Below, one piece after another: positions 51,412 through 54,692 of a DNA stretch of 64,000 nucleotides. This stretch comes from Crateriforma spongiae (lineage in GTDB: Bacteria > Planctomycetota > Planctomycetia > Pirellulales > Pirellulaceae). A program made the position numbers and the translations under genes. Under the pieces are notes generated by a model. That model worked only from the letters and a program-made list of their open reading frames with translations, made no database searches and was not told where the DNA came from. Every line of letters begins with the position of its first letter. Within the stretch, counting starts at the first letter, position 1. The stretch spans positions 1 to 64,000 of the forward strand of contig NZ_JAAXMS010000002.1 of NCBI RefSeq assembly GCF_012290005.1. The letters run 5' to 3'.

Positions 51412-53112
51412 GTGTCCAACAAATTTGATGATTTTGAGGACTCCCAATCCGAACAAGGACTCCGACGTCTGCTGAACCCGGCAAACCTGGGCAGTGCGGC
51501 TGTTCTCATCGCCGGTGGACTGATCGGGCTGGCGGCCTGGGTGTTTCTGTTCTGCCGGATCGAAGTCCCCAGTCGACATATCGCCGTCTTGACCAAAAAG
51601 ACGGGCGACGACCTGACCAATGAAACGGAAATCGTCAGCGCCGCTGACTTCGGGAAGTTCAAAGGCATCCAAGAAAAGGTGCTGACCGAAGGACGCTATT
51701 TCTACAACCCATGGAGTTGGGATTGGGATGTCGTTCCGCAGGTGGAGATCCCTGAAAACCGATTGGGCGTTCGCATTCGCTTGTATGGCGACGATCTGGG
51801 TTACGGCAACTTGATCGCCGATACGGAATCGAAAAAGGGCATTTCAACCGAAGTCTTGCGACCGGGACGCTATCCGATCAACGGCGTCGTCTACGAAGTC
51901 GGAAAAGATCCCAATCCGTTTCGTGACAACTACATCGAACTGATCGAATTGCACGAGCCCGTGGTCATCCCGGCCGGATTCAAAGGCGTGGTCACGCTCC
52001 TGTCTGCGCCACTTGCCGATGACCCGAACCAATTGATTGTTGAAGAGGGTCGCCGAGGCGTTCAGCAGAAAACCTTGGATCCCGGTGTCTACTACATCAA
52101 CCCGTACGTCCAACGTGTTTCTCTGGTCGACTGCCGCAGCCAGCGGTTCAACCTTAGCACCGGCGGCGAAATGGGCTTTCCCAGTCGAGACGGATTCTGG
52201 GTCAAACTGGACGGCCGAATCGAGTTCCGCGTCAATCCTGATCGGGCCGCCGAAGTCTTTGTGACCTACAACGATTCGGACAACGATGACGGCCTGGACG
52301 CAAGAGTCGAACAGGAAATCATTCAAAAGATCATTCTGCCCAACGCTCGATCTTTCTGCCGACTTCGCGGTAGTGATAACTCCGGCCGCGATTTCATCTT
52401 GGGCGAAAAGCGTTTGCAGTTTCAAAAGGATTTCCAAAAAGAACTGGAACAAACCTGTGAGCAACAGGGAATCGAAATCGTTCAAGCGTTGATCACACGT
52501 ATCAGCCCGCCGCAACAGATCGCATTGCCCGTGCGTGAACGTCAAATCGCCGTTCAGCAGGCCGCACAGTATCAAAAAGAAATCGAGCAACAGGCCAGCG
52601 AACAACAGTTGCGAATGGAACAAGAACTGGTCAAACGCAAGGAGGTGTTGGTCGAAGCCGATCGAGAGGTCGTGACGCTGACCACCGAAGCCCAGCGACA
52701 GCAGGACGTCGCCGTGATCGAAGCCAACCAACGCAAAAAGGTTGCCGAAACGGAATTGTCGGCTGCCAATGACCAAGCCGAAGCCGTCCGAGCACGCGGG
52801 GTCGCCGCGGCCGACGTGATCAAGTTTGGCAACGAAGCGGAAGCAGCCGGATGGGCCAAGGCCGTGGAGGCCTATGGTGGCAGCGGCGACGAGTACGCAC
52901 GCTGGGTGATGCTTCGCAAGATGGCTCCCGCGTTCCGCAAGATGATGGTCAACACGGCGGACAGTCCGTTGATGAACATCTTTGACGAATTCAACCAGAT
53001 CCCCGATTCGGCGAATACGGAACCGGACAGTGCCGTCACTCGGGACACTCCATCGAACCAACCGTCCAAACAACGCGACGAAACCCTGACCAAAGCCGGA
53101 GAAGACCAGTGA
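51412..53112 (+). CDS. SPFH/band 7 family membrane protein (1)
   Basis: A 566-residue protein with a GTG start at 51412. One membrane helix is at residues about 26-48 (AAVLIAGGLIGLAAWVFLFC). A large band-7 region follows with LDPGVYYINPYVQRVSLVDC and DGFWVKLDGRIEFRVNPDRA, and a preceding extra beta-rich part (about 60-190) with VLTEGRYFYNPWSWDWDVVP, a repeat of the GxYxxNPxxW theme. A long coiled coil (about 385-470; KEIEQQASEQQLRMEQELVK) and a polar tail end the protein. SPFH proteins form large rings or scaffolds in membranes. Its stop overlaps the start of the next SPFH gene by four bases. Confidence 0.85.
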   Translation: MSNKFDDFEDSQSEQGLRRLLNPANLGSAAVLIAGGLIGLAAWVFLFCRIEVPSRHIAVLTKKTGDDLTNETEIVSAADFGKFKGIQEKVLTEGRYFYNPWSWDWDVVPQVEIPENRLGVRIRLYGDDLGYGNLIADTESKKGISTEVLRPGRYPINGVVYEVGKDPNPFRDNYIELIELHEPVVIPAGFKGVVTLLSAPLADDPNQLIVEEGRRGVQQKTLDPGVYYINPYVQRVSLVDCRSQRFNLSTGGEMGFPSRDGFWVKLDGRIEFRVNPDRAAEVFVTYNDSDNDDGLDARVEQEIIQKIILPNARSFCRLRGSDNSGRDFILGEKRLQFQKDFQKELEQTCEQQGIEIVQALITRISPPQQIALPVRERQIAVQQAAQYQKEIEQQASEQQLRMEQELVKRKEVLVEADREVVTLTTEAQRQQDVAVIEANQRKKVAETELSAANDQAEAVRARGVAAADVIKFGNEAEAAGWAKAVEAYGGSGDEYARWVMLRKMAPAFRKMMVNTADSPLMNIFDEFNQIPDSANTEPDSAVTRDTPSNQPSKQRDETLTKAGEDQ

Positions 53113-54692
53113 ACTTTCGCATGGCAAAATCGTCCATCGGATTGATCTTTAGCAGCTTGTGGGTCGTGCTGGGATTGTTCCTTGCATTCCAGTGGTTCGT
53201 CTGTCGCAAATATGTCCCGGAGGGCCATAGCTTGCTGCTGCGTTACAAAGGCCCGCTCGTGTTACCAGCCAGTGAACCGGAGCCGGGTCGATTGTCACGT
53301 GGCAACGAAGTCGGTGTGCATGAGCAAATGCGTGGCCCCGGCCGGCACTTCTTCAACCCGATCTACTGGGAACGACGAATCGTTCCGGACATCGTCATCG
53401 GACCTGGCGAAATTGGAGTCGTGACCAGCAAAATTGGTGAACCGTTACCGCCAGGTGAATTCCTGGTCGACGGCGATCTGCAGGGCGAAAACCGAGCCCG
53501 ACATCAAGGCATCTTGCGCAAGGTATTCGGACCTGGTCGCTATCGTGCCAATCCGTACGCCTACGAGTTCAAGATTGTCGAAACGGAGGTCACCAACTTC
53601 AGCAGCCAGGAAAAAATCAGTGGCTGGGTGGAAATCCCGACTGGTTTTGTCGGCGTCGTCACGATGCAAGCCGGCAATCAGGCTCTGGGAATCAGCCCGG
53701 GCACCCAGGACAATGTCCTGCAGCCGGGTCTGTATCCGATCAACCCTCGGGAACAACAAATCGATGTGATTAAAGTCGGATACACCGAAGCCAGTATCCA
53801 GGTCGAAAATCAGTTGGACAACCAAGGCAACATTTTGTTTGACGAACAGGGTGAACCGTTGGCCGTTGCCGACACGGGAATCAACTTTCCCAGCAACGAT
53901 GGCTTTGACATCCAACTGGACTTCAGCGCGATCTGGGGTGTCATGCCCGAAAACGCCCCGGAAATAGTGCGTCTATTCGGGAATATCGAAGCCGTTCGGC
54001 AAAAGGTGATCGAACCGCAAAGTGAAAGCATCTGCCGGAACAACGGATCCAAAATGGGTGCGGTCGAGTTGCTGGTGGGCGAATCACGCGAAGCGTTTCA
54101 GACGTCCGTCAGTGACGAGTTCAAGAATGTCTTGGACGACAAGCATATCTCGCTGCTGTACGGGTTGGTGCGTCACATCTATATCCCCCAAAACGTCCGC
54201 GAACCGATTCAGAAGGGCTACGTTTCCGAAGAACTTCGTCTGACTCGTGACGAAGAAACCAAAACGGCACGTATCGAAGCCAACTTGCGGGAAGCCGAAC
54301 GAAAGGTGGAATTGGAAGCCGAAAGGATCCGAGTCGAAACCGAACGCTTGAAAGCCAGCGTGATGGCCGAGGGCGAAAAGAAGGCACGCGAAATCGAAGC
54401 GGAAACCAAACAGTTGGTCGCCGCCATCGATCGGGAAACGGCCGACTTGGACGCTCAGAAGACGGTCGTCTTGGGGCGTGCCGACGCCGAAGCGGAACAA
54501 ATGTCCAAAGAGGCCGAAGCGGACAAATTCCGCTTGGCGGTTGAAGCGTTTGGTTCGCCTACCGCGTACAACAAGTGGCAATTTGCGGAAGAATTGCCGG
54601 AAGCCCTGGATCTGCAGCTGTTTTATGCCGGCGAAGGAACGCTGTGGACGGACTTGAAGGGCGTCCAGCCCACACTGCCATTGAACAAGTAG
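53109..54692 (+). CDS. SPFH/band 7 family membrane protein (2)
   Basis: A 527-residue paralogue of the preceding protein, with a GTG start overlapping that stop (GTGA). One membrane helix (about residues 9-30), then the doubled GxHFFNPIYWERR and GRYRANPYAYEFKI motifs and a band-7 core (LQPGLYPINPREQQIDVIKV; DGFDIQLDFSAIWGVMPENA). A long charged coiled coil (about 375-460; REAERKVELEAERIRVETER) precedes the end. The two proteins are likely co-expressed and may assemble into one mixed ring, as known for HflK/HflC and other SPFH pairs. No NfeD or protease gene is nearby. A lipoprotein thioredoxin gene follows 245 bases on. Confidence 0.85.
   Translation: MNFRMAKSSIGLIFSSLWVVLGLFLAFQWFVCRKYVPEGHSLLLRYKGPLVLPASEPEPGRLSRGNEVGVHEQMRGPGRHFFNPIYWERRIVPDIVIGPGEIGVVTSKIGEPLPPGEFLVDGDLQGENRARHQGILRKVFGPGRYRANPYAYEFKIVETEVTNFSSQEKISGWVEIPTGFVGVVTMQAGNQALGISPGTQDNVLQPGLYPINPREQQIDVIKVGYTEASIQVENQLDNQGNILFDEQGEPLAVADTGINFPSNDGFDIQLDFSAIWGVMPENAPEIVRLFGNIEAVRQKVIEPQSESICRNNGSKMGAVELLVGESREAFQTSVSDEFKNVLDDKHISLLYGLVRHIYIPQNVREPIQKGYVSEELRLTRDEETKTARIEANLREAERKVELEAERIRVETERLKASVMAEGEKKAREIEAETKQLVAAIDRETADLDAQKTVVLGRADAEAEQMSKEAEADKFRLAVEAFGSPTAYNKWQFAEELPEALDLQLFYAGEGTLWTDLKGVQPTLPLNK

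Follow-up and report, generated by a model that had tools for sequence, protein, structure and literature searches.

Two adjacent planctomycete genes encode SPFH proteins with three tandem SPFH1-type modules: candidate subunits of a membrane-anchored half-cage

Organization of the gene pair

The window, a 64,000-nucleotide stretch of the Crateriforma spongiae genome, contains two adjacent genes, here called A and B, in which Pfam recognizes a single Band_7 domain per protein, starting at residue 210 of A and 175 of B; the N-terminal part before it is unannotated.

Both genes are intact open reading frames. They have GTG starts, encode 566 and 527 residues and overlap by four bases, as had been read from the DNA in the original prediction. 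The long coiled coils predicted in both proteins are likewise present in the structural models. The parts follow one another in the same order in A and B: transmembrane helix, three modules (M1, M2 and M3), SPFH2 core, long helix and cap. All features lie on the forward strand.

51412–53112, +: gene A, 566-aa SPFH protein (ORF and translation; Band_7 110.3 bits, cut-off 23.6)
51478–51552, +: A, N-terminal transmembrane helix, residues 23–47 (AlphaFold2 helix 23–47; hydropathy peak 2.41 at residue 30)
51559–51744, +: A, module 1, SPFH1-type, motif GRYFYNP (module HMM, E 1e-21)
51745–51969, +: A, module 2, motif GRYPING, with an insert present in some relatives only (module HMM, E 3e-15; alignment)
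51970–52161, +: A, module 3, the SPFH1 half of the SPFH domain, motif GVYYINP (module HMM, E 7e-20; many ordinary SPFH structures align from about residue 183)
52162–52512, +: A, SPFH2 core, residues 251–367 (solved SPFH domains, e.g. 8gn9, Z 12.0, rmsd 2.2, 104 aligned)
52513–52875, +: A, long coiled-coil helix, residues 368–488 (DSSP of the AlphaFold2 model)
52876–53016, +: A, cap region, ending SPLMNIF (A cap profile against B cap profile, E 6e-11; tail alignment)
53109–53112, +: GTGA overlap of the A stop and the B start (sequence)
53109–54692, +: gene B, 527-aa SPFH protein (ORF and translation; Band_7 79.3 bits, cut-off 23.6)
53118–53198, +: B, N-terminal transmembrane helix, residues 4–30 (AlphaFold2 helix 4–30; hydropathy peak 2.24)
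53211–53396, +: B, module 1, motif GRHFFNP (module HMM, E 2e-12)
53397–53636, +: B, module 2, motif GRYRANP (module HMM, E 3e-22)
53637–53798, +: B, module 3, the SPFH1 half, motif GLYPINP (module HMM, E 4e-13)
53880–54188, +: B, SPFH2 core, residues 258–360 (8gn9, Z 12.6, rmsd 1.9, 105 aligned)
54189–54551, +: B, long coiled-coil helix, residues 361–481 (DSSP of the AlphaFold2 model)
54552–54671, +: B, cap region, motif GEGTLWTDL (G-x-GT-(L/F)-W-x-D in 30 of 31 B rows, lost in L090)

Three SPFH1-type modules in each protein

It had been proposed that both proteins carry an extra N-terminal beta-rich part and, with it, a doubled GxYxxNP module. The beta-rich part is present, but it holds two modules rather than one, and each protein has three homologous modules in all. 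Since many solved SPFH proteins align from about residue 183 of A, M3 is the SPFH1 half of a normal SPFH domain, and the supposed doubled module is therefore a tripled SPFH1.

A pooled module HMM, built from 179 segments that include those of the window proteins, locates three modules in A (residues 50–111, 111–163 and 186–245), in B (35–96, 96–163 and 174–228; domain E-values of the six 2e-12 to 3e-22) and in nearly every listed full-length relative. Profiles of the individual modules, compared apart from the pooled HMM, match each other within A (A1–A2 1e-18, A1–A3 3e-11, A2–A3 6e-14) and within B (B1–B2 7e-17, B1–B3 1e-7, B2–B3 1e-16), while comparisons of A with B modules give E-values from 4e-10 to 3e-24. 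Control profiles of the SPFH2, coiled-coil and cap regions do not match the modules (probability <3%). By profile comparison, the likeness of M1, M2 and M3 as homologous tandem copies within each protein is far beyond chance. An alignment of 30 A rows and 31 B rows, window included, gives the pattern common to the three stretches of each protein, VPxG..GVV....G..L..G..LA..GxKGI...VL.PGrY..NPY.Y.V. No described case of this architecture was found in the accessible parts of the open-licence literature searched on SPFH proteins and flotillins, vaults and planctomycetes.

Predicted structure and relation to other SPFH families

AlphaFold2 models were calculated from a ten-row alignment and are of moderate confidence (pLDDT 71.5 for A and 72.2 for B; pTM 0.50 and 0.47, respectively). 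In the module region the confidence is mostly 67–89 per ten-residue block, with the exception of one low loop block in B; the C-terminal tails of both models have low confidence. Each module of the A model has three main strands. The best Foldseek matches are SPFH cages, with E-values of 2.1e-12 (A) and 5.1e-12 (B), and the matches listed comprise prohibitin, erlin, HflK/C, stomatin, flotillin and vault chains.

Membership of the SPFH superfamily is clear from the Band_7 scores, and the order SPFH1, SPFH2 and long helix behind a membrane anchor is found by models, fold search and hydropathy. Assignment to a known family was rejected in two cases. Against the NCBIfam models for HflK and HflC, A scores 19.8 and 11.4 bits (cut-offs 159.4 and 134.4), and B is listed by neither at E ≤ 1. 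Against the FloT model A scores 28.3 bits (cut-off 700), and B is not listed at E ≤ 1; the proteins are thus not the ordinary flotillins that the original prediction had named as its counter-case.

HflK and HflC have one SPFH1 module, and their subunits alternate. They resemble A and B as a transmembrane-anchored SPFH gene pair with coiled coils, but their structures match A and B only from about M3. Prohibitin PHB1/2 and Erlin1/2 give the highest VIA Z-scores for A (8rrh 14.8, 9o9u 13.3); they differ in having the order TM–SPFH1–SPFH2–coiled coil with one SPFH1, and their alignments begin at residue 155 of A or later and at residue 146 of B or later. The paralogues of Erlin1/2 and of PHB1/2 alternate in solved structures, according to the accessible part of one report (PMC12624060). 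SPFH11a/b, compared by description only, are two SPFH genes described as always adjacent and probably derived by duplication; in the part of that account available, SPFH11b is said to be without a coiled coil, whereas A and B both have one (Hinderhofer 2009).

The pair could be an ordinary divergent HflK/HflC or flotillin-type scaffold, with the extra modules as a spacer that has no role of its own and with FtsH modulated by the complex as it is by HflK/C. The N-terminal transmembrane helix, the adjacent genes and the SPFH domain with its coiled coil are indeed as in HflK/C, there is a weak HflK model score, and prohibitin and HflK/C are among the top structural matches. We nevertheless consider this reading unlikely: the HflK and FloT scores are far below cut-off, the same genome has other such scorers (another adjacent SPFH pair and one further protein with HflK-type scores, and one FloT-type protein, all also below cut-off), and no FtsH-type gene is present among the window neighbours scanned.

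Paralogy, pairing and distribution

In a maximum-likelihood tree of 72 proteins, rooted at the midpoint, including 11 single-gene relatives and leaving out the G181 and G161 genes described below, the A clade (30 rows, 100/99) is sister to the B clade (31 rows, 100/98), each with an ultrafast bootstrap of 100%. The 11 single-gene relatives fall apart from both clades. Judged by eye, the branching within the two clades is broadly parallel. On this sequence tree, a single old duplication gave rise to A and B as paralogues.

A match to A is found at E ≤ 0.001 in 88 of the 294 genomes of a phylum sample, and at E ≤ 1e-45 in 41 (hand count). B adjoins A in 35 of these 41 planctomycete genomes (hand count). 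Of the six exceptions, G181 has a chimera and G161 a lone gene with four modules, G173 and G280 are cut by contig ends, and G286 and G260 belong to one genus: in G286 there is an A for which no B was found, and in G260 B is on a separate contig from A. In the window's family, A is found at E ≤ 1e-40 in 15 of 119 genomes, and B follows A in all 12 regions fetched from 11 of these 15, one region probably being from the same genome as locus L008. The pair is thus patchy in its distribution but usually kept together. The A/B order is constant where the two are adjacent, and the gene ends overlap in some cases; when ORFs are taken from the first start, the four-base overlap occurs in seven pairs besides that of the window.

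A hetero-ring of the two proteins, as suggested originally, is the best-supported idea because A and B form sister clades, their order is constant where they adjoin, and solved paired SPFH proteins alternate. It is to be set against the chimera, the lone four-module gene and the lone A of G286, which mean that single-gene forms exist. Alternatively, A and B may each build a homo-oligomeric cage of its own and be co-produced for reasons of stoichiometry or regulation. This is improbable: these same three cases suggest that one gene can suffice, and the single-gene relatives are presumably homomers, but old duplicates have been kept adjacent with their order unchanged.

A second, divergent A/B pair lies at L132:5963–9850 (G333), in a genome that already has one.

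Topology and proposed assembly

HflK and HflC have the N-terminus inside and a periplasmic body. In A, the mean number of K+R residues is 3.1 before the transmembrane helix and 1.6 after it; in B the values are 3.2 and 1.9. The count before the helix exceeds that after it in 19 of 30 A rows (5 reverse, 6 ties) and in 18 of 30 B rows (4 reverse, 8 ties), a moderate bias obtained with a simple hydropathy rule by which one of the 31 B rows was dropped. The enrichment before the helix suggests an inside N-terminus, and the body of A and B is probably periplasmic.

In our favoured interpretation, which we hold to be probable, the paralogues A and B are the two kinds of subunit in a hetero-oligomeric, membrane-anchored and probably periplasmic SPFH half-cage, whose wall is lengthened by two extra SPFH1 modules. 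The N-terminal helix would hold each subunit in the membrane. The three tandem modules would lie next to the membrane and form the wall; SPFH2 would make up the shoulder and the long helices the dome, with a ring of C-terminal segments closing it. A and B are expected to alternate in the ring. From vault dimensions, the wall would be some 5–6 nm taller than that of HflK/C. By analogy with proposals for other SPFH cages, such a cage may fence off a patch of membrane, and sequester and regulate membrane-protein clients there. The single-gene cases (G181, G161 and G286), the split contigs of G260 and the lack of a neighbour that points to a function weigh against this half-cage model, as do the moderate confidence of the models, the modest Z-scores of the vault alignments and the moderate charge bias.

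Gene neighbourhood

Upstream of the pair are a gene for an MFS transporter and a 596-aa ORF without a Pfam match, and downstream are genes for a thioredoxin, a GH10 enzyme and a DUF6655 protein; a GFO/IDH/MocA protein is also among the window neighbours scanned with Pfam. A tblastn search with the MFS, unassigned, thioredoxin and GH10 products gave matches only in G304, a genome of the same genus. The predicted lack of a neighbouring protease or NfeD was confirmed for the window neighbours scanned with Pfam and for 20 proteins in other loci, a statement that covers neighbours with Pfam matches, some others matching no Pfam family.

In related genomes the A/B pairing recurs, without a widely conserved partner gene. 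When the ORFs of 31 loci and the window end were clustered, no family besides A and B was present in more than 6 of the 32 regions. The commonest neighbour cluster is a protein kinase (6 of 32 regions), two members of which, beside the pair at L080:11074–12249 and L082:10555–11703, are confirmed by Pfam; two more clusters recur in four regions each. The members of another cluster, in five regions, resemble antisense shadow ORFs over A and B.

In R. europaea (L010:11486–15518), MoxR, DUF58 and VWA/BatA genes follow B. In the rumen bacterium RUG14841 (L011:3388–6283) a DUF58 ORF starts 15 bases after B and is followed by a VWA gene. These genes have no tblastn match in the other loci searched, and the link, seen in two loci of distant genomes, is a lead rather than a rule.

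Comparison with the major vault protein

The major vault protein (MVP), which assembles into a closed 78-mer, resembles the models of A and B in having tandem three-stranded beta modules followed by an SPFH shoulder, a long cap helix and a cap ring. It differs in having nine repeats and no membrane anchor, compared with three modules, a transmembrane helix and two paralogous subunits. No other solved SPFH protein is known to carry beta modules in front. Each MVP repeat is described as an antiparallel sheet of three strands in the accessible part of one study (PMC13347060). Vault chain 9r86 is found by Foldseek with E-values of 5.5e-11 (A) and 2.1e-11 (B). In VIA, 10 of the 50 matches listed for A and 9 of the 50 for B start ahead of residue 100, every one of these 19 being vault MVP; the remaining listed matches begin at residue 144 or later, ordinary SPFH cages aligning from about M3 onward. 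Among the matches listed, MVP chains are thus the only ones that cover M1 and M2. Residues 49–490 of A align with residues 323–770 of MVP in 9bw5 (Z 10.1) and B aligns likewise (Z 9.8–11.4), the MVP side starting at residue 321–323 in 7 of the 10 early A matches and 6 of the 9 early B matches. On these models, the closest solved match listed for the whole module array is the eukaryotic vault particle.

The vault alignments have Z-scores of 9.1–11.4, lower than those of prohibitin and erlin and in the range where the tool warns of a mere common arrangement, and rmsd values of 37–73 Å on models of moderate quality. The models are long and bent, which accounts for the high rmsd; what the match shows is that order and type of fold are alike, not that the structures superpose. 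Moreover, as MVP is the sole such solved protein known to us, an aligner that follows the chain may extend into the modules.

At the level of sequence, Pfam Vault repeat and MVP_shoulder models give no match to A or B at E ≤ 1, and none to 21 module regions at E ≤ 10. PF01505 is over its cut-off in none of the 294 phylum-sample genomes, with sub-threshold matches at E ≤ 0.1 in 22. When a profile of the 21 regions, each with three modules, was searched against the PDB, no MVP was among the matches at E ≤ 10 (the best were enolase, 0.12, and prohibitin, 0.23), and the module HMM does not match human MVP. With full-length profiles, A 351–486 is aligned weakly with human MVP 630–767 (probability 11%) and B 339–476 with 625–764 (2%), in the expected register and mostly within the coiled coil.

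For comparison with single MVP repeats, assumed residue boundaries of R1 to R9 were used. Of these, the placing of D383 in R8 and of R474 in R9 agrees with the text of the study cited above (PMC13347060). In hhalign the module profile scores within 100 shuffles each for all of R1–R9, the score being reached by 2 shuffles for R8, 3 for R3, 5 each for R2 and R7, and 17 to 64 for the other five. When the profile was broadened and 60 shuffles were used, R1–R9 taken as a whole was borderline (17.2 against a shuffle maximum of 16.3), and the scores of single repeats are reached by one shuffle each for R3 and R7 and by 6 to 33 for the other seven; the sensitivity of this test is poor, as two of four ordinary SPFH proteins from the same genome score above their shuffles. 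With no significant match and poor sensitivity, the sequences neither establish nor refute homology of the modules and the vault repeats.

Single-gene relatives and module number

A/B-type proteins have three modules, and the single-gene relatives mostly three (e.g. L093, L097 and L104) or four (L098, L100–L102 and L163–L166). One single-gene SPFH protein, at L092:6340–8385 on the reverse strand (G109), has five; that genome also has the A/B pair of L090 and, at L163, a single gene with four modules. Among distant relatives, L099 and L103 have no module at the cut-off of the module HMM, L140 has one only, in a 376-aa frame, and L167 has none listed in the HMM scan. Proteobacterial plasmid proteins of Novosphingobium (L118), Rhizobium (L119) and Paraburkholderia (L120) match the same module HMM, with four modules in all three examined out of 67 matching records. 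They differ from A and B in being encoded by a single gene, in their C-terminus and in falling into a separate clade with other single-gene forms; their annotation reads 'flotillin family protein' or 'SPFH domain-containing protein', and one of the stretches has none.

Two further single genes are related to the pair itself. The lone gene of G161 (L168:1036–2745, reverse strand) encodes four modules of marked regularity and has a tail, GEGTFWTD, like that of B. It sits near the base of the A/B split; when a quick tree was made from the SPFH2-helix part, it branched at the base of the B side (support 0.85). In G181 one 545-aa gene (L081:7218–8855) combines the module half of A with the SPFH2, helix and cap half of B. 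Comparison of its DNA with G238 places the junction within 36 bases at the conserved FPSxDGFPI motif, which is common to the paralogues, consistent with a chimera formed by recombination between them.

Whether MVP originated in prokaryotes is left undecided in the accessible text of a 2021 review, where putative homologues in bacteria are mentioned along with band 7 proteins (PMC7916137). We tentatively raise the possibility that the vault wall is a tandem SPFH1 array, and that the bacterial proteins with three (A, B and some single genes), four (G161, the plasmid-borne and several planctomycete single genes) and five modules (G109) are membrane-anchored half-vaults; they would then either be left over from successive stages in which a membrane-bound SPFH half-cage grew into a vault, or have arisen in parallel by the same growth. 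The A/B pair may then show how half-cages grow into vaults. Bacterial proteins with such stacks of three to five SPFH1-type modules, anchored in the membrane, would allow structural tests of how the vault wall arose. In natural cages, the height of the wall may be set by the number of modules.

In some relatives M3 is broken by a long insertion, in the B genes of L085 (6062–8728), L088 (6751–9963) and L111 (6642–9863) and likewise in the A gene of L105 (5314–7296); these repeated M3 insertions look as if they decorated the wall.
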